Part shown: positions 4,905 to 13,878 of the stretch, in pieces
Layout of the letters: every line of letters starts with the position of its first letter
Position numbering within the stretch: position 1 is the first letter of the stretch
Source of the DNA: a virus
IMG/VR virus record: IMGVR_UViG_3300037502_001254
Location: 1-32,391 of that record
Length of the DNA: 32,391 nucleotides
Direction: 5' to 3' (one strand)
Program-made: the position numbers and the translations under genes
Notes under the pieces: model-generated
Database searches by the model: none
What the model was told of the DNA's origin: nothing
The model's input: the letters and a program-made list of their open reading frames with translations, nothing else

Positions 4905-5291
4905 ATGAAACAAATAGCGGCAAATAGTGGATTTGCATTTTTTGGCTCAGCTATTGCATTTTTTTTCGGGGAGTGGAGCCAGATGCTCATGTTGTTTTTT
5001 TTCGTCATTATAATGGATTATCTAACAGGCGTTATGGCGGCAGTTGTTGAAAAAAATCTATCATCGGCGATAGGATATAAGGGATTGATTAAAAAGTTTG
5101 GGATGGTATTGGTTGTGGCGTTGGCGCATCAGCTTGACCAATTCACAGGGCAAAGCGTCATCATGACAGGAGCTATTTTCTTTTTTATAGCGAATGAGCT
5201 TGTTAGCATAACCGAAAATTATGGGCGAATTGGTTTACCATTACCGCCGCAGTTAAAAAATGTCATTAAGATATTGAGGGATAAACAATGA
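4905..5291 (+). CDS. Holin, phage holin family 4 (Cph1/TcdE type)
   Basis: A 128-residue membrane protein. ATG 4905 is preferred to GTG 4902 because AGGAGG at 4892-4897 is 7 bases from it. Hydrophobic segments include FAFFGSAIAFFFG, MLMLFFFVIIMDYLTG, GMVLVVALAHQLD and GAIFFFIANELVSI. Family hallmarks are DYLTG, the SAIGYKGLIKK segment, and NELVSITENYGRIGLPLP near the end. Holins gather in the inner membrane and form the lesions that let the lysin reach the wall. It overlaps the endolysin gene by 4 bases, forming a normal lysis cassette after the fibre gene. Confidence 0.92.
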   Translation: MKQIAANSGFAFFGSAIAFFFGEWSQMLMLFFFVIIMDYLTGVMAAVVEKNLSSAIGYKGLIKKFGMVLVVALAHQLDQFTGQSVIMTGAIFFFIANELVSITENYGRIGLPLPPQLKNVIKILRDKQ

Positions 5292-5851
5292 TATTTTCAG
5301 GATACCGCATCACTAGTCCATACGGCGACCGTATTCATCCGATTAAAAAAACTAAAATATTTCACCGTGGGATTGATTTGGTCATTGGTCATCAAAAGCC
5401 GATTCTATCTTTTACCGATGGTGAAGTCATCTTTGCAAAGGAAGGCAAGGAAGGTTCAGGATTCGGAAATTACGGCAATGTGGTTGCGGTGAGAGATTCC
5501 AACGGCGCATTGCATTGCTATGCTCATCTCCATACTATCGGCGTTAATGTGGGCAATTTGGTTAAGCGCGGCGACCCGATAGGCACTGAAGGCAACACAG
5601 GACAATCGGCAGGAAGTCATCTGCATTATGAGGTTCGGCTTAAGGATTCTCCTTCATTTGGATTCGGAACACATACTGACCCGACCGAATACCTAACAAA
5701 GTTTTATGCAGATGAATCAAAGGTAAGCGAATGGGCGAGGGATGCTGTAGCATGGGCAACACGCAATAAGTTTACAGATGATTCTAATCTAAAAGAGCCA
5801 ATGACCAAGGAACAAATAATCACAATCCTGCACAGAATTTGGCAGAAGTAA
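5288..5851 (+). CDS. Endolysin: M23 metallopeptidase with an SLH-like repeat
   Basis: A 187-residue lysin starting at an ATG overlapping the holin stop. Residues 1-135 form an M23 (LytM) zinc peptidase: H26 and D30 in HRGIDL, HLH around residues 80-82, and HLH at 111-113. M23 enzymes cut peptide bridges in peptidoglycan. Residues 147-187 read like a single S-layer-homology repeat (WARDAVAWATRN, then KEPMTKEQIITILHRIW), which usually binds secondary wall polymers. No signal peptide is seen, so release depends on the holin. It is the last gene of the late block, with a terminator overlapping its stop. Confidence 0.92.
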   Translation: MIFSGYRITSPYGDRIHPIKKTKIFHRGIDLVIGHQKPILSFTDGEVIFAKEGKEGSGFGNYGNVVAVRDSNGALHCYAHLHTIGVNVGNLVKRGDPIGTEGNTGQSAGSHLHYEVRLKDSPSFGFGTHTDPTEYLTKFYADESKVSEWARDAVAWATRNKFTDDSNLKEPMTKEQIITILHRIWQK

Positions 5852-5872
5852 GCCGCAAGGCTTATTTTTTTT
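5849..5872 (+). terminator. Intrinsic terminator after the lysis cassette
   Basis: TAAGCC at 5849-5854 pairs with GGCTTA at 5859-5864 around a GCAA loop (GNRA type), followed by eight T at 5865-5872. The stem starts in the stop codon of the endolysin. It closes the late operon and insulates it from promoter P1, 47 bases further on. Confidence 0.9.
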
Positions 5873-5918
5873 ACTCAAAAATAATTATAAAAAACATTGA
5901 AATATATAAAAATAATGC

Positions 5919-5948
5919 TTTACATATAAATATATATCATGTTATAAT
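5919..5948 (+). promoter_or_regulatory. Promoter P1 of the first small-gene cassette
   Basis: TTTACA at 5919-5924 and a perfect TATAAT at 5943-5948 are 18 bases apart, a sigma-70/sigma-A type promoter in a very AT-rich stretch. GGCATAGCC at 5951-5959 lies around the expected transcription start. The -35 box, its flank TGC, the 18-bp spacing, GGCATAGCC and the following AAAAAGGAGA leader are all repeated at P2 (12633-12662). Confidence 0.85.
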
Positions 5949-5980
5949 AAGGCATAGCCAAAAAAAAGGAGACGATGACA

Positions 5981-6181
5981 ATGTACAAAGCAATCGGAAA
6001 CACATTTTACGCAAAGGATTTTTTGAAGGAAGTAGGTTTTAAGTGGGACGCAGAACGCAAGGCATGGATTGGCAACGAGGAAGCAAAAGCAGAATTGGAA
6101 AAAGGTAGAAATAACATATTTTACGGAAGAAAAATACAAAACTTATTACACAAATTTAACATCCAAGCAGTAGACATTTAA
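5981..6181 (+). CDS. Hypothetical small protein, DUF5710-like
   Basis: A 66-residue protein and the first gene after P1. ATG 5981 is chosen because AGGAG at 5967-5971 is 9 bases away; the upstream in-frame ATG 5975 is only 3 bases from it. The pattern FYAKDFLKEVGFKWDAERK followed by AWIG resembles the small DUF5710 motif (aKxxLKxLGaxWDxxxKxW), found beside nucleic-acid enzymes and alone in phages. Function is unknown. A host-directed early role is inferred only from its place directly behind a strong promoter. Confidence 0.8.
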   Translation: MYKAIGNTFYAKDFLKEVGFKWDAERKAWIGNEEAKAELEKGRNNIFYGRKIQNLLHKFNIQAVDI

Positions 6182-6192
6182 TAGCAAGCCGA

Positions 6193-6212
6193 GGGCGGCG
6201 GTAATACCGCCC
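6193..6212 (+). promoter_or_regulatory. 5'-UTR hairpin element H1
   Basis: GGGCGG at 6193-6198 pairs with CCGCCC at 6207-6212 around the 8-base loop CGGTAATA. It is preceded by AAGCCGA and followed about 10 bases later by the AAAGGAG site of the gene at 6237. A second register (5-bp stem, TAATA loop) is possible. No T-run follows, so it is not an ordinary terminator. It belongs to a family of seven such elements. Confidence 0.75.
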
Positions 6213-6236
6213 AACAAACAAAAAGGAGCGAACAAA

Positions 6237-6449
6237 ATGACAAGACAAGAAGTAGTAGAAAAAAACGGAATGTATTATGCAGTTTACAAATCAAGCGGAT
6301 ATTACAAACTAGAAAAATTAAGACAAGACAGAAGAATCGATAGAAAAGCAAAAGCCATTTTGATAGATACCGAAGAAGAATTTGCAACATACAAATTATC
6401 AGGAGTTATGATTGCAGGATTATTTAAAATAGTTTCTCCATCAGTTTAA
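6237..6449 (+). CDS. Hypothetical small basic protein
   Basis: A 70-residue protein with AAAAGGAG 9 bases before the ATG. It is rich in Lys, Arg and Tyr (GYYKLEKLRQDRRIDRKAKA) in its first 50 residues and ends with a more hydrophobic stretch, YKLSGVMIAGLFKIVSPSV. I recognise no family. It lies between hairpins H1 and H2 in the P1 cassette and reads as a single independent translation unit. Confidence 0.75.
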   Translation: MTRQEVVEKNGMYYAVYKSSGYYKLEKLRQDRRIDRKAKAILIDTEEEFATYKLSGVMIAGLFKIVSPSV

Positions 6450-6459
6450 TCGAAGCCGA

Positions 6460-6479
6460 GGGCGGCGGCGAAACCGGGC
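6460..6479 (+). promoter_or_regulatory. 5'-UTR hairpin element H2 (degenerate)
   Basis: It has the same GCCGAGGGCGGCGG core as H1 and H3 and the loop CGGCGAAA, but the right arm is CCGGGC instead of CCGCCC, so only four of six stem pairs remain. It stands between the stop at 6449 and the AAAGGAG of the gene at 6498. It may be a damaged copy. Confidence 0.6.
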
Positions 6480-6497
6480 AATAAACAAAAGGAGTGA

Positions 6498-6755
6498 ATG
6501 AAGATAAACAATCTAAAAAGCAAAGTACTAAAATTTATGGCAAGTAACAAAGATGCAGACTTAATAGACAGAGAAGGAGTACAAAATCAAACAGCATTAA
6601 GAACAGCAAAGGCACTAAGATTAGAGCCACAAGAAGCGAAGAAGGTAATGGAAATATTAGTAGAAGACGGATTAGCGGAAAAGAGAAGCGGAAAGTACTG
6701 CGGAGCAACAAGATACTGGATAACAAGCAAAGGCAGAGAAGTAGCAGGATTGTAA
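6498..6755 (+). CDS. Small winged-helix DNA-binding protein
   Basis: An 85-residue protein. The segment NQTALRTAKAL, then EAKKVMEILVEDGLAEKR and TRYWITSKGREVAGL, has the order of a winged helix: recognition-type helices, a wing, and a final strand. It probably binds DNA and could regulate cassette or host genes; the target is unknown. The start is unusual because AGGAG ends only 3 bases before the ATG, and no better in-frame start exists, so translation may be weak. It lies between H2 and H3. Confidence 0.72.
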   Translation: MKINNLKSKVLKFMASNKDADLIDREGVQNQTALRTAKALRLEPQEAKKVMEILVEDGLAEKRSGKYCGATRYWITSKGREVAGL

Positions 6756-6765
6756 GAAAAGCCGA

Positions 6766-6785
6766 GGGCGGCGGCGAATCCGCCC
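6766..6785 (+). promoter_or_regulatory. 5'-UTR hairpin element H3
   Basis: GGGCGG at 6766-6771 pairs with CCGCCC at 6780-6785 around CGGCGAAT. GCCGA precedes it and AATAAATCAAAGGAG follows, leading to the ATG at 6810. It has the same architecture as H1, with loop changes only. Confidence 0.75.
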
Positions 6786-6809
6786 AATAAATCAAAGGAG
6801 AGACGACGA

Positions 6810-7127
6810 ATGACAACTTGGACACAAAAACACAACATTAAAAAATGGGTAGAAGAAAAGTTATATGATGCAGTTGAAAAGTTATTGCCCGAAGGATTTG
6901 AGCTTGGATTTGATGCAAGCCGAATAAGCGAAAGCTCATACCTTACAATCACACATCCGAACGGATTAGATGGATTTACAATCAGAATTAGCGCACATTT
7001 TAAAGGATACGGCGCGAGCGATGAAATTACAGTACTTATGGCCGATGGTGAAAGCATGAGAACCAAGACAGACATTAAAAAAGAAGTGATTGCAGAAGTT
7101 AAAAAGAATATTGCAATATATGCATAA
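6810..7127 (+). CDS. Hypothetical protein of the P1 cassette
   Basis: A 105-residue protein following hairpin H3, with AAAGGAG 10 bases before the ATG. The N-terminal 30 residues are predicted helical and amphipathic (IKKWVEEKLYDAVEKLL); the middle has beta strands (YLTITHPNGLDGFTIRISAHF); the end is a charged helix. No known motif is visible. It is the last cassette member with an upstream hairpin of this type. Confidence 0.75.
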   Translation: MTTWTQKHNIKKWVEEKLYDAVEKLLPEGFELGFDASRISESSYLTITHPNGLDGFTIRISAHFKGYGASDEITVLMADGESMRTKTDIKKEVIAEVKKNIAIYA

Positions 7128-7158
7128 AAATATTAAAATATTGAAAGGAGGTGATAAC

Positions 7159-7476
7159 ATGACCAAAGAACAGTTTGATAGAATCATCGATTTGCTTGAC
7201 GAGTCAATCATGCGGAAAGTAAAAAGAAATTATTCCATCAGCATCAACGAGGAAGAAGAAACCGAAAAGGCATGCGAGAAGGTATTGGGCAGAAAGCCAA
7301 CGGATGAAGAATTTAATCACGTTTTTATTTCAGATGAATTTACAAGCATCCTAGACGAGATTGATGACTTTATCAGATTCAGAGAAAGAGCCGAAAAAGG
7401 CAAAGGACATTTTGAAGATTTTACGCATGATAATCCATTTGGTTCGAGAGGAGGATTCCGTTATGACAAGCAGTAA
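7159..7476 (+). CDS. Hypothetical acidic protein
   Basis: A 105-residue protein. The start at ATG 7159 is set by AAAGGAGGTGA at 7145-7154; a longer reading from 7090 would begin inside the previous gene without a ribosome binding site. The sequence is acidic and helical (FTSILDEIDDFIRFRERAEK) with a Gly-rich end. No family is recognised. It overlaps the next gene by 14 bases, so the two are probably translated together. Confidence 0.78.
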   Translation: MTKEQFDRIIDLLDESIMRKVKRNYSISINEEEETEKACEKVLGRKPTDEEFNHVFISDEFTSILDEIDDFIRFRERAEKGKGHFEDFTHDNPFGSRGGFRYDKQ

Positions 7477-7645
7477 TGTTCGAGCCGCATTAGAGTTGCG
7501 AAAGAAAATGCGAGAACATCGCAGATTAAGTAAAGCTATTGATGCAGATTATCGAGAATTAGATTTACAGTATGAAGATTTAGTTCAGAATTTTAATGTA
7601 TCAGAACAGAAAGAATTTATTAAAATATTAGAGGAGGTAAATTGA
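7463..7645 (+). CDS. Hypothetical small helical protein
   Basis: A 60-residue protein. ATG 7463 follows GAGAGGAGGA by about 9 bases; an upstream ATG at 7361 in the same frame lies within the previous gene and has no such site. It is almost wholly helical and charged, probably a coiled coil (LELRKKMREHRRLSKAI). The stop at 7643-7645 overlaps the ATG of the recombination gene. It may be an accessory to that protein, but this is only positional. Confidence 0.75.
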   Translation: MTSSNVRAALELRKKMREHRRLSKAIDADYRELDLQYEDLVQNFNVSEQKEFIKILEEVN

Positions 7646-8148
7646 TGGAAAAAAAAGATATTTTGAAAGATTATATAACAGTTAATGAGCGAATACTTAA
7701 GTTTTATGAACAATATCCAGATGGGCGAATCATCACTAACATCGTATCATGGGCAGAAGGCAGAATCGTGATGCAGGCGACCATATACCGCGACCATGAC
7801 ACTGAAAAAGCATTATCCATCGGACACGCCTACGAACAGGAGGGAAGCACTTATATAAACAAAACATCCGCACTTGAGAATTGCGAAACATCGGCGGTTG
7901 GCAGAGCGTTGGCATTGGCAGGATTCGAGATTAAAAAGTCCATAGCAAGCCGCGAAGAAGTAGAAGCCGCACAAGCGAAGCAGGAACAGCTCAAGAAGGA
8001 AGAAGCCGCGGAGATACCTGAAATCATCAAAGCATTGTATGAGGAAAAGTTTGGGAATCTTGAAAACTTTGAATTGAACATTAACAAACTCAAGGAACGC
8101 GGATTTACTTATGAGGAAATATATCAAAGGTTGGAGGGCAAAAAATGA
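7645..8148 (+). CDS. Putative ssDNA-annealing/recombination protein
   Basis: A 167-residue protein with GGAGG 7 bases before ATG 7645. The conserved block YPDGRI, then SIGHAYEQEGS, INKTSALENCETSAVGRALA and IASREEVE, defines a widespread phage family that nearly always sits beside SSB and is thought to act in single-strand annealing or as an accessory of it (ERF/Sak3-like group). The C-terminus is a charged helix. It is directly followed by SSB with a 4-base overlap, which supports a role on single-stranded DNA. The exact biochemical activity is inferred. Confidence 0.6.
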   Translation: MEKKDILKDYITVNERILKFYEQYPDGRIITNIVSWAEGRIVMQATIYRDHDTEKALSIGHAYEQEGSTYINKTSALENCETSAVGRALALAGFEIKKSIASREEVEAAQAKQEQLKKEEAAEIPEIIKALYEEKFGNLENFELNINKLKERGFTYEEIYQRLEGKK

Positions 8149-8444
8149 ACAGATTCGAACTGAAAGGTGCAATTTACGGCGAGCCAAGGTTATACGGAAG
8201 CGGAGAGAAAACAGTTTGTAAGGCACTTATAAAGACAGAAAAAAGTTTCATCAATGTAACAGCTTTTGCGGAAATATCACGCATTTTACATTCACATGGC
8301 AAGGGCGAAGAAATCCATTGTGAAGGCTCCATTAAATCGGGAAGTTATGAGAAGGATGGGAAAAAAATTTATACGCAAGATTTGGTCATTGAAAAGATTT
8401 ACGGAATCACCAAAAAAAATGAAATTGACGACTGGATGAAGTGA
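8145..8444 (+). CDS. ssb: Single-stranded DNA-binding protein
   Basis: A 99-residue OB-fold protein: KGAIYGEPRLYGSG, then VCKALIKTEKSFINVTAF, GEEIHCEGSIKSGSYEKDGK and TQDLVIEKI, in the order of bacterial SSB strands. It is shorter than host SSB. Instead of a long acidic tail it ends in EIDDWMK, so contact with host repair proteins through a DDxPF tip looks absent. It protects and organises single strands during phage replication and recombination and sits next to the annealing protein. Confidence 0.85.
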   Translation: MNRFELKGAIYGEPRLYGSGEKTVCKALIKTEKSFINVTAFAEISRILHSHGKGEEIHCEGSIKSGSYEKDGKKIYTQDLVIEKIYGITKKNEIDDWMK

Positions 8445-8445
8445 G

Positions 8446-8769
8446 ATGGAGTACCAGACAATAGCAAAAGAAATTATCGAATGCGTCAAAAGACTGAAGG
8501 AACAAGAGAAAACCCTTGCGGATGCCGCGAGGGAACGCGCAACAATGGAATCATCATATCGTAAAGCGTTCGCTGTCGAAATTATGAAACTAAAGCAAAT
8601 GGGCATACAAGCAAGCATTATAAAGGAGGTTGCACACGCAAATATCGCCGATATCGTATTACAGCGCGAGTTACAAGATTCACTTTTTACCGCCAAACGT
8701 GAAAGCATACGAGCCATCGAAACCGAAATTTCCGCATGGCAAACGATAGCGAAATTCTATGAGCGGTGA
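8446..8769 (+). CDS. Conserved helical phage protein, function unknown
   Basis: A 107-residue protein starting one base after the SSB stop with only a weak ribosome binding site, so it is probably coupled. The pattern LADAARERATMESSYRKAF, LKQMG, then VAHANIADIVLQRELQDS and ETEISAWQTIA matches a small helical family often found with SSB and recombination genes in phages of Gram-positive bacteria. The role is unknown. It overlaps the HNH gene by 11 bases. Confidence 0.75.
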   Translation: MEYQTIAKEIIECVKRLKEQEKTLADAARERATMESSYRKAFAVEIMKLKQMGIQASIIKEVAHANIADIVLQRELQDSLFTAKRESIRAIETEISAWQTIAKFYER

Positions 8770-9049
8770 ATATTCTAAGCAGTTTCAAACGCGCGGGAAA
8801 CGAGTAAAACAAACGCAACGCCAGAAGGGCGACATAAGCGCACAGACGCGGCGAGAAGTGCAGGAACGTAGTAATGGAGCTTGTGAGATATGCGACAGTC
8901 AGAGAGCCACGCAGATGGCTCATATTACGAGCAGGAAAAGAATCGAGCATAAGACAACCGCAGAAGATTTATTGCACGTATGCGTATCATGTCATCAATG
9001 GCTTGACCAGACAGCAGAAGGCAGAAAATACAAGGAGATGCGGAAATGA
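8759..9049 (+). CDS. HNH endonuclease
   Basis: A 96-residue protein with a basic N-terminus. Residues 40-83 carry an HNH motif: C42-x2-C45 (ACEIC), H55 in MAHITSR, and LLHVCVSCHQWLD with C75-x2-C78 and H79. The two Cys pairs would hold a structural zinc, and H55 and H79 belong to the nuclease core. It lies in the replication block, not next to terminase as in many HK97-like phages, so it is more likely a free-standing homing or recombination nuclease than a packaging factor. Confidence 0.85.
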   Translation: MSGEYSKQFQTRGKRVKQTQRQKGDISAQTRREVQERSNGACEICDSQRATQMAHITSRKRIEHKTTAEDLLHVCVSCHQWLDQTAEGRKYKEMRK

Positions 9050-9195
9050 GATTATGGTTATACGGCAAGCTACTTAATAGTATGCTTAAAACAAATCGTT
9101 ACAACAGATTTTATTTAAGATTGTGGGAATTATGGCACATTGAGAAAAGGAGGGTAGACATGCGGAATCGCAACAATCTTATGAATGATATATGA
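9046..9195 (+). CDS. Very small basic protein / coupling reading frame
   Basis: A 49-residue frame whose ATG overlaps the HNH stop. It is rich in Arg, Leu and Asn with no recognised motif. Inside it, a strong AAGGAGGG at 9147-9154 precedes an in-frame ATG at 9160, which would give only 11 residues. The stop at 9193-9195 falls just after the start of the next gene (9185). Its main job may be to carry ribosomes to that start, which has no ribosome binding site of its own. Confidence 0.5.
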   Translation: MRLWLYGKLLNSMLKTNRYNRFYLRLWELWHIEKRRVDMRNRNNLMNDI

Positions 9196-9673
9196 CTTTA
9201 ACGAGCAGTTGCAGAAAGGCGAACGTTATGAAGATGAATTAGATATTTTTTTTAGTCAATTTTATAAAATTAAAAAAGTTACGATGGATGAACAGCGGCA
9301 GGGATTCGATAGGATTTTTGTAAGACCAGACGGAACGCAATTGAAAATCGAATACAAATCAGATGACAAAGCACGCACAACAGGAAACTTTTTTATCGAG
9401 CTTTATAGCATGTATCCCACTAAAAAAGGATGGGCATACACAAGCCAAAGCGATTATATCATTTATTTATTAGTTGATTGGCGGATTTATGTGATTGATA
9501 CTCCAGATATGCGGCGATGGGTGGAGAAATGGAAATGTGAGGAACGTATCAGGCGATGCCGCAACAAAGATTATGAATCACAAGGTATACTATTGCCACT
9601 TAAAAGAATCGAAGTTGTAACAAAAAAAATATATGAAAAGGATGCAGACCAATGGAAACTTATTACACCGTGA
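9185..9673 (+). CDS. PD-(D/E)XK-like nuclease
   Basis: A 162-residue protein. FDRIFV with D42, followed by LKIEYKSD with E56 and K58, matches the D...ExK core of restriction-endonuclease-fold nucleases, and later strands (DYIIYLLVDWRIYVIDT) fit that fold. Such phage proteins are often resolvases or nucleases acting in replication, but the substrate cannot be told. The start overlaps the upstream 49-residue frame, so translation is probably coupled. The end overlaps the helix-turn-helix gene by 22 bases. Confidence 0.65.
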   Translation: MIYDFNEQLQKGERYEDELDIFFSQFYKIKKVTMDEQRQGFDRIFVRPDGTQLKIEYKSDDKARTTGNFFIELYSMYPTKKGWAYTSQSDYIIYLLVDWRIYVIDTPDMRRWVEKWKCEERIRRCRNKDYESQGILLPLKRIEVVTKKIYEKDADQWKLITP

Positions 9674-9816
9674 AAGAAGTAGCTAAAATTTTAGGAATGG
9701 CGGAAATTACAATCCGGCAATGGATGGGCAGGGGACAACTACAGTTTACCAAGTTTGGCACAAAAGCCGTACGAATCAGCAAAACAGAAGTTGAACGAAT
9801 CATCAATAACAAGTAG
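9652..9816 (+). CDS. Excisionase-type helix-turn-helix protein (first of pair)
   Basis: A 54-residue protein starting at ATG 9652 inside the end of the nuclease gene. YYTVKEVAKILGMAEITIRQW is followed by TKFGTKAVRISKTEVERIINN. This is the winged MerR/excisionase-like DNA-binding fold (helix-turn-helix_17 type) in minimal form. A second, related protein follows at 9898. With no integrase in the genome, a role as a small transcription or replication regulator is more likely than excision. A stable hairpin follows the stop. Confidence 0.8.
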   Translation: METYYTVKEVAKILGMAEITIRQWMGRGQLQFTKFGTKAVRISKTEVERIINNK

Positions 9817-9821
9817 TAAGC

Positions 9822-9849
9822 AGGGCATTGCATTTCGGTGCAGTGCCTT
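9822..9849 (+). terminator. Stable hairpin, possible terminator or attenuator
   Basis: GGCATTGCA at 9824-9832 pairs with TGCAGTGCC at 9839-9847 with a single G-T wobble; A and G before it can add pairs with the following TT. The 6-base loop is TTTCGG. The following TTTGTAAGTTTT is a poor T-run, so termination may be partial. A weak promoter-like pair, TTGTAA at 9849-9854 and TAAAAT at 9872-9877 with 17 bases between, follows before the next gene. Confidence 0.55.
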
Positions 9850-9897
9850 TGTAAGTTTTATAAAAATATTATAAAATAAAAAAAAGGAGTGATTAAA

Positions 9898-10059
9898 ATG
9901 AAGGTTTATAAGGTTAGAGAAGTTGCGGAAAAGTTAGCGGTGCATGAATTGACAATCCGAAATCGAATCAAAGAAGGAAAGATTCAAATTATTAAATTAA
10001 ACGGTCATACTATCAGGATTCCGCAATCGGAGCTTGATAGGTTATTGGAGGTGAAGTAA
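9898..10059 (+). CDS. Excisionase-type helix-turn-helix protein (second of pair)
   Basis: A 53-residue protein with AAAAGGAG 9 bases before the ATG. KVYKVREVAEKLAVHELTIR, then KIQIIKLNGHTIRIPQSELDR, is the same minimal winged helix as at 9652, so the two are probably paralogues. Its stop overlaps the start of the replisome organizer (TAATG), placing it in the same operon. It may regulate the replication genes or assist at the iterons 350 bases downstream. That role is inferred. Confidence 0.8.
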   Translation: MKVYKVREVAEKLAVHELTIRNRIKEGKIQIIKLNGHTIRIPQSELDRLLEVK

Positions 10060-10853
10060 TGGCAGTTAAAAGAATGTTTTCATTAAAAGTTATTGATACT
10101 GATTTATTCTTAGAAATGCCGATTTCAGCGAGATTGCTATATTATGATTTAGGTATGCGAGCCGATGATGACGGGTTCGTTTCATCACCTAAAAAAATAT
10201 CTAAAATGATAGGATGTTCCGAAGATGATTTTAAGATTCTATTGGCAAAAGGTTTTATAATCCCGTTTGAAACAGGAGTATGCGTTATAACACATTGGAA
10301 AATGAACAATTATATTCAAAAAGACCGCTATACAGCAACAATTTATAAATCAGAATTTGCTATGTTAACCGATAATGAAGGTGAATATGTTAGTAAAATG
10401 GATAGAAAATGTATACAGAATGATAACAAAATGTATACACAGATTAGTATAGATAAGAGTAGTATAGATAAGGTTAGTAAAGATAAGAAAAAACATAGTC
10501 CAGAAACAGAAGAAATCTTATCCTACTTGAACCTAAAAAGCGGTTCAAATTATAGGTTGATAGATACTAATTTGAAATTGATTGATGCAATCCTAAAAAA
10601 AGGTTACACCAAGGAAGATTGCATGACCGTAATCGATAAAAAAATGCAGGAATGGAGCGGAACCGATATGCAACAGTATCTAAGGCCACTAACATTATTT
10701 AGCTCGAAATTTGATGCATATCTCAATCAGCCGATGACCAGAAAAAGAAGTAACTTTGAGCAGACGCAAGACAATCTCAAAAACTTATATGATAAATATG
10801 GAGGGGAGCAGGATGGAGAAGAAAGAAGTAGTAAAAATATTTTCGATATTTAG
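10059..10853 (+). CDS. Phage replisome organizer (replication initiator)
   Basis: A 264-residue protein with GGAGG 7 bases before the ATG. Residues 1-90 form a winged-helix initiator domain (DTDLFLEMPISARLLYYDLG, ADDDGFV, KMIGCSEDDF). Residues about 150-235 match the conserved phage C-terminal domain Phg_2220_C (SYLNLKSGSNYR, DKKMQEWSGT, YLRPLTLFSSKFDAYLN). Such proteins bind the origin and recruit the helicase loader. The linker between the domains is encoded by iterons, as in other organizers whose origin lies inside the gene. The helicase loader gene follows with a 41-base overlap. Confidence 0.85.
   Translation: MAVKRMFSLKVIDTDLFLEMPISARLLYYDLGMRADDDGFVSSPKKISKMIGCSEDDFKILLAKGFIIPFETGVCVITHWKMNNYIQKDRYTATIYKSEFAMLTDNEGEYVSKMDRKCIQNDNKMYTQISIDKSSIDKVSKDKKKHSPETEEILSYLNLKSGSNYRLIDTNLKLIDAILKKGYTKEDCMTVIDKKMQEWSGTDMQQYLRPLTLFSSKFDAYLNQPMTRKRSNFEQTQDNLKNLYDKYGGEQDGEERSSKNIFDI
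10406..10487. other. Iteron cluster, probable replication origin
   Basis: AAAATGTATACA occurs at 10406-10417 and 10428-10439 (22 bases apart) and contains the 8-bp palindrome TGTATACA. Directly after it, AGTATAGATAAG occurs at 10446-10457 and 10461-10472, with AGTAAAGATAAG at 10476-10487, exactly 15 bases apart. The stretch is AT-rich and lies in the linker of the replisome organizer gene. Repeats in this position are known origins in several phages of Gram-positive bacteria; origin function here is inferred. Confidence 0.65.
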
Positions 10854-11301
10854 TGTGGTTTATCCGAAGTTTATCGAATCAGGCAAAGAAGAATTAATGT
10901 TAGAAGTATGGCACTCATTACTAAAAAATTATCCTTATGAGCTTGTAAAACACGCCGCAGAAACTCATATTAAATCATCAAGATTCGCACCAACAATTCA
11001 TGACATTATTCATCATATAACCGAATTTGAAAACATTGGTAAGCTTGACGGCATGAGCGCATGGGGAAAGGTCCTTAAAGCTATAAGGGATTATGGATAT
11101 TACCGCGAAGCCGAAGCACTGCAGAGCATGCCGCCAGAAGTGGCAGGAGTAGTAAAAGCGATGGGATGGCAGACACTTTGCATGAGCGAAAACGAAATCG
11201 CCGACCGCGCACATTTTATCAAAGCTTATGACACGATGCAGAAGCGGGAACAGCAGGTTGCGCTCATGGGCGGAAATGATTATTTAAAATTAGGGAGATG
11301 A
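10813..11301 (+). CDS. Helicase loader (G40P-loader/inhibitor family)
   Basis: A 162-residue protein. ATG 10813 is chosen because AGGGGAGCAGG precedes it; an upstream in-frame start at 10756 lies deep in the organizer gene. The N-terminal 70 residues (VVYPKF, VWHSLLKNYPYELVKHA, RFAPTIHDII) match the loader-and-inhibitor-of-G40P domain, and the C-terminal half contains AWGKVLKAIRDYGYY, AMGWQTLCMSEN and DRAHFIKAYD, typical of the family. It loads the replicative helicase at the origin. No phage helicase gene is seen, so it probably acts on the host DnaB-type helicase. Confidence 0.85.
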   Translation: MEKKEVVKIFSIFSVVYPKFIESGKEELMLEVWHSLLKNYPYELVKHAAETHIKSSRFAPTIHDIIHHITEFENIGKLDGMSAWGKVLKAIRDYGYYREAEALQSMPPEVAGVVKAMGWQTLCMSENEIADRAHFIKAYDTMQKREQQVALMGGNDYLKLGR

Positions 11302-11305
11302 CAAA

Positions 11306-12235
11306 ATGGAAAAGAATGTTTTATGTATAAGCGGTGGAAAGGATTCAACGGCGTTGTGGATTTATGCAACAAAAGTTTTAAAAAAAGAAGTTATGCCGAT
11401 TTTTTGTGATACAGGAAATGAACATCCGATGACTTATGAATATTTAGATTATTTACAATCCAAGTTAGGTAATTTAAAAATTATTAAACCAGATTTTACT
11501 CAACAGATAATAAGAAAAAGAAAATACGTTCAAGAAAATTGGAAAGATGATTTTTTGAAAATGGGAAAAACTGAAGAAGAAGCTGAAGAAATTATTAAAA
11601 AAGTTATTGAGATTTTAGTTCCGACAGGCAATCCTTTCTTAGATTTATGCATTTGGAAAAGCCGCTTTCCAAGCAGTCAAGCACGTTTCTGTACAACAGA
11701 ATTAAAAGTTATTCCTACGATAGAACAGATTTATTTACCTTTACTAGAACAAGGTCATGAAGTATATTCGTGGGTTGGAGTAAGAGCCGATGAAAGTCAA
11801 GCAAGAGCAAAACTAGAAGAATATGAAGCATTGCCAGAAGGTTATACAGTTTATAGACCGCTTTTAAAATGGACTGTTCAAGATGTTTTTGAAATACACA
11901 AAAAATATGATATAGAACCAAATCCATTGTATAAACAAGGGATGAAGCGAGTTGGTTGTATGCCTTGCATACATGCAAACAAAGAGGAATTATTTGAAAT
12001 TTCATTAAGATTCAAGCAAGAAATAGAACGAATTGCGGAATGGGAAAAAATTGTAGGCAAAGCATCAAAACGGCAACGCTCATCTTTTTTTATCCACAGT
12101 GATGATGATGATAGAAGTGATATTCACAAGTGGGTTGAATGGTCAAAAACATCATACGGCGGAAAGCAATATGATTTATTCAAAAGTAGTTCAGAAGTCC
12201 TGCAATGTTCTTCAATTTATGGATTATGCGAATAG
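11306..12235 (+). CDS. PP-loop enzyme of the PAPS reductase family
   Basis: A 309-residue protein with a PP-loop ATP-binding motif SGGKDS at residues 9-14, followed by a PAPS-reductase-like layout: FCDTGNEHPMTYEYL, then WVGVRADESQAR and a Cys pair in VGCMPCIHA. The family includes APS/PAPS reductases and sulfurtransferases such as DndC. In phages these enzymes are common, but their substrate is mostly unknown. No dnd cluster genes are near, so a DNA sulfur modification role cannot be claimed. It sits between the helicase loader and the RusA resolvase. Confidence 0.82.
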   Translation: MEKNVLCISGGKDSTALWIYATKVLKKEVMPIFCDTGNEHPMTYEYLDYLQSKLGNLKIIKPDFTQQIIRKRKYVQENWKDDFLKMGKTEEEAEEIIKKVIEILVPTGNPFLDLCIWKSRFPSSQARFCTTELKVIPTIEQIYLPLLEQGHEVYSWVGVRADESQARAKLEEYEALPEGYTVYRPLLKWTVQDVFEIHKKYDIEPNPLYKQGMKRVGCMPCIHANKEELFEISLRFKQEIERIAEWEKIVGKASKRQRSSFFIHSDDDDRSDIHKWVEWSKTSYGGKQYDLFKSSSEVLQCSSIYGLCE

Positions 12236-12245
12236 GAGATGAAAA

Positions 12246-12623
12246 ATGAAACCATTAATACTTAAATTACCACCATCGGTCAATCATATGTACATTAACG
12301 CAAAGATACGCGGCAGGAACATGCGAATCCTAAACAAGTATGCAAATGATTGGTACAAGGATGCACTAGAAAAAACTATCGCTTATGTGGAAGAATCACG
12401 ATGGGAAACAGCAGACGAAAAGATTATTTTGGAATTGTATTTTTATTATCCCAATGCACGATTGAGAGATTCACATAATACATTAAAGATTCTTTTGGAT
12501 TTGTTGGAGCGTGGTAGGATTTACACCAATGACAAATACGCATTGCCGCGAGTTATGGACTTCACTCTAGATAAGGCGCATCCGCGAGTTGAAATCTTTT
12601 TAAAAAAGATGGCGAATAATTAA
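12246..12623 (+). CDS. RusA-type Holliday junction resolvase
   Basis: A 125-residue protein with AGGAGATG shortly before the ATG. It begins with LPPSVNHMY and carries RDSHNTLKILLDLLE and YTNDKYALPR. Against E. coli RusA, D75 and D96 stand for the catalytic D70 and D91 and K81 for K76, but the D72 position is His (H77). DxHN variants seem common in Bacillota phages, so activity is still likely. It resolves recombination or replication branches before packaging. It ends 10 bases before promoter P2. Confidence 0.85.
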   Translation: MKPLILKLPPSVNHMYINAKIRGRNMRILNKYANDWYKDALEKTIAYVEESRWETADEKIILELYFYYPNARLRDSHNTLKILLDLLERGRIYTNDKYALPRVMDFTLDKAHPRVEIFLKKMANN

Positions 12624-12632
12624 AAATAGTGC

Positions 12633-12662
12633 TTTACATATAATAACATAGTATGATAAAAT
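12633..12662 (+). promoter_or_regulatory. Promoter P2 of the second small-gene cassette
   Basis: TTTACA at 12633-12638 and TAAAAT at 12657-12662 are 18 bases apart, the same spacing as P1. GGCATAGCC at 12665-12673 again lies around the expected start, followed by AAAAAGGAGATGA. The shared blocks with P1 are clearly more than chance. The -10 box differs from P1 (TAAAAT against TATAAT), so P2 may be weaker. Confidence 0.82.
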
Positions 12663-12692
12663 TAGGCATAGCCGAAAAAGGAGATGAACACA

Positions 12693-12995
12693 ATGAACAA
12701 ATACGATGCATATTGGGCAGAGCAACAAAAGAAAGCAGAAGCCAAAAAAGAACAAGCAAGAATCAAAAAAGAAGAAGAAAAGAAAGCAATGATGAAAGAT
12801 GTAAAGCTAGAAGGCGAACACGAATTAACAGGAAAGACAAAAGCAGGAAAAGAAGTAAAATTTGAAAAGTGTTGGGGAGTAAGCAAGCAAAGTCGATGGG
12901 CAGGCACTTTATCAGTAAAGCAAGATGGAGAATGGGTTACAGTATTCACAAAAGGCTACGAAAGCAAAGCACTTCAATGGATGGCGAAAAACTAA
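12693..12995 (+). CDS. Hypothetical charged coiled-coil protein
   Basis: A 100-residue protein and the first gene behind P2. ATG 12693 is 9 bases from AGGAG (12679-12683); the in-frame ATG 12684 touches that site and cannot be used normally. Residues 1-40 are almost only Lys, Glu, Ala and Gln, a long charged helix. Residues 45-100 are a compact Trp- and Lys-rich region (CWGVSKQSRWAGTLSVKQDG, WVTVFTKGY). No family is recognised. The start arrangement mirrors that of the first gene after P1. Confidence 0.8.
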   Translation: MNKYDAYWAEQQKKAEAKKEQARIKKEEEKKAMMKDVKLEGEHELTGKTKAGKEVKFEKCWGVSKQSRWAGTLSVKQDGEWVTVFTKGYESKALQWMAKN

Positions 12996-13000
12996 AAGCG

Positions 13001-13020
13001 AGGCGGTGTAACAGCCGCCT
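13001..13020 (+). promoter_or_regulatory. 5'-UTR hairpin element H4
   Basis: AGGCGG at 13001-13006 pairs with CCGCCT at 13015-13020 around the 8-base loop TGTAACAG. Compared with H1, the outer G-C pair is A-T, so the stem is kept by a paired change. AATCAATAAAAGGAGG follows and leads to the ATG at 13045. Confidence 0.78.
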
Positions 13021-13044
13021 AATCAATAAAAGGAGGTGAACAAA

Positions 13045-13197
13045 ATGGAGAAATTAGAACAACAAATAGTAGATAGAATTGAATCATTAATTGATTTTTT
13101 GACAGAAGGTGAATTAGATACAGTAGAAAAGGCTAGAATCAAAGGAATGATACAAGGATTAGAAAATGTAATTGTGATGATGAACAGATTGAAATAA
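13045..13197 (+). CDS. Small helical protein, 50 residues
   Basis: An AAAAGGAGGTGA site precedes the ATG. The protein is two amphipathic helices (LEQQIVDRIESLIDFLTEGE and KARIKGMIQGLENVIVMMN) with a short turn, a helical-hairpin pattern that often dimerises. No family is recognised. It is too short for many gene finders but has its own hairpin (H4) and an excellent ribosome binding site. Confidence 0.75.
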   Translation: MEKLEQQIVDRIESLIDFLTEGELDTVEKARIKGMIQGLENVIVMMNRLK

Positions 13198-13208
13198 TCA
13201 AAGCATGC

Positions 13209-13222
13209 CGATGTAAATATCG
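13209..13222 (+). promoter_or_regulatory. 5'-UTR hairpin element H5 (degenerate)
   Basis: CGAT at 13209-13212 pairs with ATCG at 13219-13222. The loop region TGTAAATA resembles the TGTAAMAG loops of H4 and H6, and the flanks (GCATGCCGA before, CAATCAATCAAAGGAGG after) match the other elements, but the outer stem is lost. Confidence 0.55.
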
Positions 13223-13248
13223 TTCAATCAATCAAAGGAGGTGAGCAA

Positions 13249-13389
13249 ATGAAAAAGACATGGGATGAAATCACACTTGACGAAATCATCAACGGATTCG
13301 GAGAAACTGAATTAATGGATGAGGACATCGCAACAGGAATGACAGACGAAGACATCAGCGAATGGGTATATGGATGGATGCAAGGTTAA
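13249..13389 (+). CDS. Small acidic protein, 46 residues
   Basis: AAAGGAGGTGA precedes the ATG by a normal distance. The protein is strongly acidic (about 15 Asp and Glu in 46) with aromatic residues near the end (SEWVYGWMQG). Small acidic phage proteins often act by binding host factors or mimicking DNA, but nothing here proves that. It lies between H5 and H6. Confidence 0.72.
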   Translation: MKKTWDEITLDEIINGFGETELMDEDIATGMTDEDISEWVYGWMQG

Positions 13390-13397
13390 TCACAGCA

Positions 13398-13417
13398 GGG
13401 CGGTGTAAAAGCCGCCT
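13398..13417 (+). promoter_or_regulatory. 5'-UTR hairpin element H6
   Basis: GGGCGG at 13398-13403 pairs with CCGCCT at 13412-13417 (outer pair G-T) around the loop TGTAAAAG, one base different from H4. ACCAAATCAAAGGAG follows and leads to the start at 13441. Confidence 0.77.
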
Positions 13418-13440
13418 ACCAAATCAAAGGAGCGATGAAG

Positions 13441-13650
13441 ATGTTCACAACAGTATTACAAGCAACGTATACTAATCAAGATGGCGACAAACTAGAATTT
13501 CTTTTTACGGATTATGCAGAGTTCAAAGCAAAATTCAAACTGCACGATGAATTGATTGAAGAAGGTTTCGAGCTTGAATTTGAAGATGTTTTAAGCACCA
13601 GAGATTGCGAGTACGAAGATATTGAAGCATTGGAATACAAGGATTGCTAA
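13441..13650 (+). CDS. Hypothetical acidic protein
   Basis: A 69-residue protein. ATG 13441 is 8 bases from AGGAG (13428-13432), while the in-frame ATG 13435 is only 2 bases away, so 13441 is preferred. It starts with two beta strands (TVLQATYT, KLEFLFTDY) and ends in an acidic helical part (ELIEEGFELEFEDV). Two Cys near the end are 13 residues apart. No family is recognised. Confidence 0.77.
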   Translation: MFTTVLQATYTNQDGDKLEFLFTDYAEFKAKFKLHDELIEEGFELEFEDVLSTRDCEYEDIEALEYKDC

Positions 13651-13662
13651 TCACACAGCCGA

Positions 13663-13682
13663 GCGGAGCGGCAAAACTCCGC
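13663..13682 (+). promoter_or_regulatory. 5'-UTR hairpin element H7
   Basis: GCGGAG at 13663-13668 pairs with CTCCGC at 13677-13682 around the loop CGGCAAAA. The stem sequence differs from H1 while the 6-bp/8-nt form is kept, the clearest sign of covariation in the set. GCCGA precedes it and CACAAAGGAG follows. Confidence 0.8.
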
Positions 13683-13704
13683 AATATCACAAAGGAGTGA
13701 TAAA

Positions 13705-13878
13705 ATGTTCAGCAAAAAAATGAAAGAAGCAATTCACGATTATTGGAAAGATGATGACGGTTATTGGGTAATATTAAAAGAAGGATACGAAGCACAGCAC
13801 GATGGAGCAAGGACAGTAAATGGCGAAACTTATACGGATTTAATAAGAGAAATGAAACTAATAAAAAGGAGCGATTAA
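13705..13878 (+). CDS. Small conserved-looking phage protein, 57 residues
   Basis: AAAGGAG lies 7 bases before the ATG. The segment YWKDDDGYWVILKEGYEA, then HDGARTVNGETYTDLIREM, looks like a compact beta-rich domain seen in small Bacillota phage proteins of unknown role. The end of the gene (AAAAAGGAGCG) doubles as the ribosome binding site of the next gene, whose ATG follows 2 bases after the stop. Confidence 0.77.
   Translation: MFSKKMKEAIHDYWKDDDGYWVILKEGYEAQHDGARTVNGETYTDLIREMKLIKRSD

Follow-up and report, generated by a model that had tools for sequence, protein, structure and literature searches.

We analysed a phage sequence, IMG/VR virus record IMGVR_UViG_3300037502_001254, and refer to the entire record of 32,391 bases as the window. 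Two cassettes of small genes in the window (cassette 1, 5975-7127; cassette 2, 12684-13878) are punctuated by seven copies of a structured element, and comparison with other phages assigned four of these copies to a family of predicted RNA pseudoknots of 25 nucleotides (nt). The nearest named phages by terminase were Marinitoga and Thermoanaerobacterium phages (42-52% identity), metagenomic contigs were near relatives (71-99%), and DNA comparison of the cassette region with GenBank phages gave no match. The best two promoter matches of the region stand at the heads of cassettes 1 and 2, and these two promoters are 82% alike over 65 nt. The elements occupy all seven intergenic gaps longer than 40 nt within both cassettes; the remaining gaps of the window hold none. 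This agrees with an earlier, sequence-only reading, which had located seven recurring copies and confined them to two promoter-led cassettes. That reading described all seven as hairpins; the recurring, structured and intercistronic nature of the element was confirmed, and the hairpin form was replaced by a pseudoknot for four of the seven copies. The promoters and copies are listed below, with bits and E values from a covariance model of the first loop type.

5919..5948, + strand: cassette 1 promoter, TTTACA-18-TATAAT, TG-extended, 11/12 consensus matches
6188..6212, + strand: copy 1, predicted H-type pseudoknot, 39.4 bits, E 4e-8, in the training set
6455..6479, + strand: copy 2, predicted chimeric pseudoknot, 22.2 bits, E 9e-4, outside the training set
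6761..6785, + strand: copy 3, predicted H-type pseudoknot, 45.9 bits, in the training set
12633..12662, + strand: cassette 2 promoter, TTTACA-18-TAAAAT, TG-extended, 10/12 consensus matches, leader GGCATAGCC
13001..13020, + strand: copy 4, type-2 hairpin, AGGCGG-UGUAACAG-CCGCCU, z -2.2, outside the pseudoknot model
13203..13224, + strand: copy 5, degenerate type-2 element, GCA U GCCGA UGUAAAUA UCGUU, stem broken
13398..13417, + strand: copy 6, type-2 hairpin, GGGCGG-UGUAAAAG-CCGCCU, z -2.2
13658..13682, + strand: copy 7, predicted H-type pseudoknot, 40.6 bits, z -4.3, in the training set

The loop of copies 1, 2, 3 and 7 opens with CGGC (CGGU in copy 1), four bases that can pair with the GCCG flank on the 5' side. 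The GC(C)GA sequence had been read as a mere flank; in the copies with the CGGYRAWW loop it pairs with the start of that loop. The parts follow each other as flank, a 1-nt A, 5' arm, loop start, A-rich remainder of the loop and 3' arm, which is the order of an H-type pseudoknot with a first stem (S1) of 4 base pairs (bp), a first loop (L1) of 1 nt (A), a second stem (S2) of 6 bp and an A-rich third loop (L3) of 4 nt. Copy 1 consists of S1 GCCG (6188-6191)/CGGU (6199-6202), L1 A, S2 GGGCGG (6193-6198)/CCGCCC (6207-6212) and L3 AAUA. Copy 3 has S1 GCCG/CGGC, L1 A, S2 GGGCGG/CCGCCC and L3 GAAU, and copy 7 has the same S1 and L1 with S2 GCGGAG/CUCCGC and L3 AAAA. Copy 2 retains an intact S1 (GCCG/CGGC) and only 4/6 pairs in S2 (GGGCGG/CCGGGC). 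The S2 or hairpin stem is complete in copies 1, 3, 4, 6 and 7, the five complete stems noted earlier, and broken in copy 5. The consensus of the family is N-CCG-A-G-NNNN-G-CGG-N'-NAAW-C-N'N'N'N'-C.

The covariance model encodes the S2 pairs only and was trained on a set that included copies 1, 3 and 7. It recovered copies 3, 7, 1 and 2 (E 1e-9 to 9e-4) and, at E<=5, none of copies 4-6. The two loop types recognised from the sequence (CGGYRAWW and UGUAAMAG) are thus not only real but belong to two different elements. Pairing was assessed by scanning viral contigs with one stem fixed and the other left free; the figures refer to the matches listed. When AGCCGAG and CGGCAAAA were fixed and S2 was left free, the first scan returned 11 distinct matches with 6/6 pairs, one of which (L069) looks like chance, none with 5/6, and a remainder with 4 or fewer. 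Further S2 stems were obtained in a second scan that required AAGGAG downstream. Over all collected loci, S2 formed 6/6 Watson-Crick pairs in 29/41 intercistronic matches as compared to 13/184 elsewhere, and the stems found included GGGCGG, GCGGAG, GCGGGG, GCGCGG, GCCGGG, GCCCGG, GCACCG and others.

The reciprocal test of S1 was compared to 2000 rounds of shuffled flanks. With S2 set to GCCCGG, 4/4 pairing was found in 15/88 distinct matches listed (shuffle mean 1.9, maximum 7), and with GCCGGG in 34/106 (mean 8.2, maximum 17). Between a stop codon and a Shine-Dalgarno (SD) sequence plus start, our definition of intercistronic for this test, 4/4 pairing reached 13/16 for GCCCGG as compared to 2/74 elsewhere, and 18/24 for GCCGGG as compared to 16/82 elsewhere. 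Several intercistronic matches that lacked 4/4 pairing had an L1 of 2-3 nt or three S1 pairs. The excess was smaller for GGGCGG (4/17), as this stem is also frequent in ordinary hairpins. The first S1 pair was seen as GC, CG, AU and UA. Beyond GCCG/CGGC, S1 occurred as CCCG/CGGG and ACCG/CGGU, and as the whole replacements CGGG/CCCG (L168), CCCU/AGGG and ACUC/GAGU (L573) and, in a member of the window's own phage family, UCCG/CGGA (L117). These non-GCCG types are the ones that discriminate in the complement-without-reversal control, which is uninformative for GCCG because this sequence is the same backwards. A pair table, illustrative because its rows were selected as paired, showed 9/10 pairs varying on both sides (68 cells vs 19.7 in shuffles). 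In bacterial genomes the S2-only model, with S1 pairing unscored, retrieved ACCG-A-GCAGGG-CGGU-AUAU-CCCUGC. The sequence-only reading had reported paired stem changes within the window and had proposed to count such changes in relatives against chance; paired changes were indeed seen, the excess was found and the element survived this comparison. A plain hairpin was ruled out for the first type since the S1 pairs covary. With loop-flank pairing and compensatory changes in both stems, features of the H-type class, sequence comparison places copies 1, 2, 3 and 7 in a family of compact, predicted H-type RNA pseudoknots.

The viral-contig scans recovered the knot architecture from dozens of uncultivated phages, where both stems show compensatory changes; the element is widespread and not peculiar to the window phage. 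Most carriers have one copy only, and most share no or few proteins with the window. The element is rare in bacteria: one strict pattern was matched in 1/84,980 species genomes, a metagenome-assembled genome (MAG) of the Oscillospiraceae. A model search found the element in 3/95 genomes of that MAG's order and 8/398 of its phylum; in a few weaker matches at the phylum level no element was recognised on reading. Several bacterial loci with the element carry small genes and phage-like regulators, and a few carrier loci are phage-like loci of Bacillota. This distribution suggests that it belongs to phages or mobile DNA.

Placement was assessed in at least 69 distinct elements. The distance from the preceding stop codon to the knot was 12 nt or less in 59/69, 13-25 nt in 7 and farther in 2, with no recognised stop in 1 (quartiles 7, 8 and 10 nt). 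The distance from the knot to the next start had quartiles of 14, 17.5 and 29 nt (22-24 nt in copies 3 and 7), and 8/69 had no start within 60 nt. As the stop distance is tight and the start distance loose, the element is positioned by the preceding stop codon, not by the downstream ribosome binding site to which it had been tied. Bases in the stop-to-knot spacer are 42% A, 31% C and 9% G. On the 3' side an unstructured A-rich stretch runs up to the SD, and the SD itself is not sequestered. In unrelated phages the knot likewise stands between small genes; an independent phage with other stem sequences (L573) has six knots at successive junctions. The L573 knots lie on the reverse strand at 5092-6851, with S1 CCCU/AGGG and ACUC/GAGU and an S2 of up to 7 bp, and a T-rich tail was observed some 4 nt behind the knot.

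In relatives of the window phage the w13045 homologue in L038 and L041 and the w13249 homologue in L005 stand first behind a promoter and had no element, while homologues of both genes inside a cassette had it. As it is absent when the same gene is promoter-proximal, the element belongs to the junction and not to the translation start as such. The cassette 1 leader has GGC-ATA-GCC immediately 5' of the first SD and no pseudoknot. A GGC-AUA-GCC mini-hairpin right before an A-rich SD was observed downstream of both promoters (5948-5965 and 12662-12680). It takes the slot in the leaders that the knot takes at internal genes, and it is kept in several relatives.

Copies 4 and 6, with the loop UGUAAMAG, and the broken copy 5 have no loop-flank pairing of the knot kind. 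In copy 4 a U-G pair closes a GUAACA loop, and the sequence of copy 5 is retained in the relative L308. The motif GGCGGTGTAANANCCGCC was present in more than 120 viral contigs, in many of them followed by a T-run and in others standing before an SD; type 2 is a common intercistronic phage hairpin, and in the window's phage family it takes the slot of the knot. The hairpin GGCGG-UGUAAMAG-CCGCC was very frequent in viral contigs (L384-L495), with and without a T-run, and its GUAAMA loop, closed by U-G, may be one that phage hairpins favour. It is possible that type 2 is a second pseudoknot, with GCR pairing to UGU as several copies allow; this pairing needs G-U pairs and fails in L030. Single-copy folding energies were significant for copies 4, 6 and 7 and unremarkable for copies 1-3 and 5; the evidence for the element is comparative.

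Copy 2 mixes the 5' arm GGGCGG with the 3' arm CCGGGC. Its 3' half, CGGCGAAACCGGGCAAUAAA, is that of a fully paired element with the 5' arm GCCCGG in the relative L594, which precedes a homologue of w6498 (68% identity) located in cassette 2. The broken stem of copy 2 is thus explained by a crossover within the element when the gene moved between cassettes. In L038 a single element stands where w5975 is joined straight to w6810; two further genes and two further elements lie there in the window. A junction in L030 combines type-2 and type-1-like halves, with a knot-type flank and a type-2 loop. Comparison of these sequences indicates that crossovers occur inside elements, with one clear internal case, and the part in gene swapping proposed from the sequence is borne out by the copy 2 chimera and by the two genes lacking in L038. 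Genes were also gained and lost at junctions without an element, such as a 43-aa gene before w13881, so the element helps exchange and is not required for it.

A Pfam search of the cassette-gene proteins gave nothing at the curated cut-off, and w6498 was the only one of them to resemble a winged-helix regulator. This gene (6498-6755) encodes a small winged-helix-like protein (phrog_11046, E 2e-4) and appears to be a mobile regulator gene, found in cassette 1 of the window and cassette 2 of L594. Outside the cassettes, a gene at 11306-12235 has an SGGKDS PP-loop motif and resembles phosphoadenosine phosphosulfate (PAPS) reductase/DndC by eye. It is absent from the same place in the relatives L008, L005 and L038, suggesting recent insertion or loss.

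Neither the window copies nor six carrier loci matched Rfam 15 (gathering threshold, or E<=10 over the element), and the core, queried by short BLAST against GenBank phages, had chance-level matches only. The element is not described in the papers examined on T4, start-associated sequences (SAS), ToxI and a microbiome-wide RNA screen, with supplementary candidate-RNA lists outside the search; an earlier sighting without a name in such lists is possible. The early mRNA of T7 has RNase III hairpins between its cistrons; these and the REP-like (repetitive extragenic palindromic) 3' stabilising hairpins are likewise structured punctuation between small phage genes or behind stops. These are long irregular hairpins or palindromes, unlike the 25-nt pseudoknots here, and RNase III requires longer stems than 4 and 6 bp. 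The gene 32 pseudoknot, the cluster K sequences and ToxI are the nearest described systems, and each fails at least one defining feature. The gene 32 mRNA pseudoknot of T4, T2 and RB69 is a translational operator for gp32 and in a 2010 review was possibly the sole viral example in translational autoregulation (PMC3014915). As here, an H-type knot in a phage mRNA stands upstream of the ribosome binding site, and the stretch behind it is A-rich or A+U-rich and without structure (PMC3014915). Gene 32 has one copy for one gene, 67 nt upstream of the start, with an identified protein ligand (PMC3014915), unlike the window family, which has many copies and genes and is placed by the preceding stop. 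A T4-type gene 32 operator was rejected, as the downstream genes are small and of many kinds and the start distance varies.

The SAS of cluster K mycobacteriophages, to which the sequence-only reading had compared the element, is linear, a motif of 13 bp (GGGATAGGAGCCC) located at the SD and anchored on the start, and the extended SAS (ESAS) is a pair of 17-bp imperfect inverted repeats with a spacer of 4-13 bp, with no pseudoknot described (PMC3203893). Like the element, these sequences recur within a single phage group between small genes that belong to different families, and the ESAS holds an inverted repeat (PMC3203893). The comparison did not hold, as the elements have neither a 13-bp GGGATAGGAGCCC-like motif nor 17-bp inverted repeats and have another anchor. 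ToxI of type III toxin-antitoxin systems and pseudo-ToxI of phage PhiTE are RNA pseudoknots of about 36 nt, also carried by phages (PMC3475682). ToxI stands as 5.5 tandem repeats before toxN (PMC3475682), whereas the window units are separated by genes. With head-to-tail repeats absent and no Rfam match for the window copies or six carrier loci, a type III antitoxin was rejected as well.

We give an even chance to the most likely reading, that the knot is mRNA punctuation, a barrier at the end of a cistron by which each small gene would be kept and translated as its own unit. At 5-12 nt behind the stop the knot would meet the leading edge of the terminating ribosome, and it would lie roughly beyond the footprint of the initiating ribosome. 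Once the A-rich linker has been cut, such a barrier would halt exonucleases that degrade in the 3'-to-5' direction, and it would hinder ribosomes from travelling further after termination. Type-2 hairpins, which take the same slot, would serve as less specific barriers. The units share 25 nt at their borders, and homologous crossover in the elements would add, lose and move small genes. Replacement of the knot by plain hairpins favours a generic barrier, and the conserved CCG-A...CGG and NAA argue for something more specific.

Several points weigh against punctuation by the knot. Copies 4-6 have no knot and S2 of copy 2 is weakened, so some junctions do without a strict knot, and one junction in L289/L308 has no element. 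The inner S1 CCG/CGG, L1 and L3 are conserved in sequence beyond what a mere roadblock would need, which would fit a bound factor; part of this conservation stems from the search patterns themselves. The conserved pairing of both stems would be equally expected from two mutually exclusive hairpins. The viral scans give lower bounds, and many contigs are fragments. The tail AAUAAAUCAAAGGAG persists at the knot-less cassette 1 junction of L289/L308, a sign that loss of the element is possible.

A bound factor would make the knot an operator, at which a phage or host protein or a small molecule controls the next gene as gp32 of T4 does at its mRNA pseudoknot. We consider this unlikely. The strong conservation of the L1 A, the inner S1 and the NAAW of L3, the unstructured A-rich stretch from knot to SD and the service to small genes of many phages are what an operator predicts. 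It would have to act from the stop codon and not the start, with about 1/8 of the elements far from any start, with S2 free in sequence, with the SD unsequestered, and with type-2 hairpins substituting at equivalent junctions. No factor or regulator gene common to carriers was found, most of them sharing no or few proteins with the window.

It is improbable that the element was selected as a recombination joint, a repeat that exists for swapping small genes as units, although the copy 2 chimera moved a gene between cassettes, two genes that stand between elements in the window are missing from L038, and in L030 the 5' half of an element is type-2 and the 3' half type-1-like. Most carriers have a single copy, with no partner in the same genome; DNA homology is destroyed by the compensatory changes of the two stems, which preserve RNA structure; and gain or loss also occurs at element-less junctions. 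Gene shuffling through the shared sequence is most likely a by-product of the element.

Alternation of the S1 and S2 hairpins without a simultaneous knot, a switch that would tune attenuation or translation, is in our estimate quite improbable. Both pairings are conserved as it requires, and pseudoknot-free folds of single copies put S2 or a short competing hairpin at the minimum. A 1-nt L1 over an S2 of 6-7 bp, with an A-rich L3, is the standard geometry for simultaneous stems, and there is neither a third pairing partner nor a downstream terminator.

That the knot acts like a viral recoding signal and stimulates readthrough of the stop codon or frameshifting is highly improbable. The length of the stop-to-knot spacer fits (5-9 nt in viral recoding signals), but past the stop codon the frame of the gene shows no open-frame excess over the other two and closes before the next start in 25/58, the stop is UAA in 48/58, and in copy 1 there is another in-frame stop. 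Next to no weight is due to intrinsic terminators or to GC-rich hairpins that arose by chance: the stems are GC-rich and type-2 hairpins elsewhere are often followed by a T-run, but as the sequence-only reading had noted no T-run follows any of the seven copies in the window, none of the seven was predicted as a + strand intrinsic terminator, every cassette gap longer than 40 nt is filled, and paired changes in two stems, the covariation tests, refute this reading for type 1.

The recurrence of the knot, with both stems kept by matching changes, points to an undescribed RNA family that would separate genes in phage operons. That single or serial 25-nt pseudoknots serve as exchangeable borders of small genes, as barriers and as crossover sites, across many unrelated lineages is a tentative proposal that we rate somewhat short of an even chance. 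Pseudoknots in phage mRNA are known mainly from gene 32 of T4-type phages. If confirmed, the family would provide an annotation mark for tiny phage genes overlooked by gene finders, a test case for the separation of neighbouring cistrons in dense operons and a visible joint for the exchange of accessory genes.

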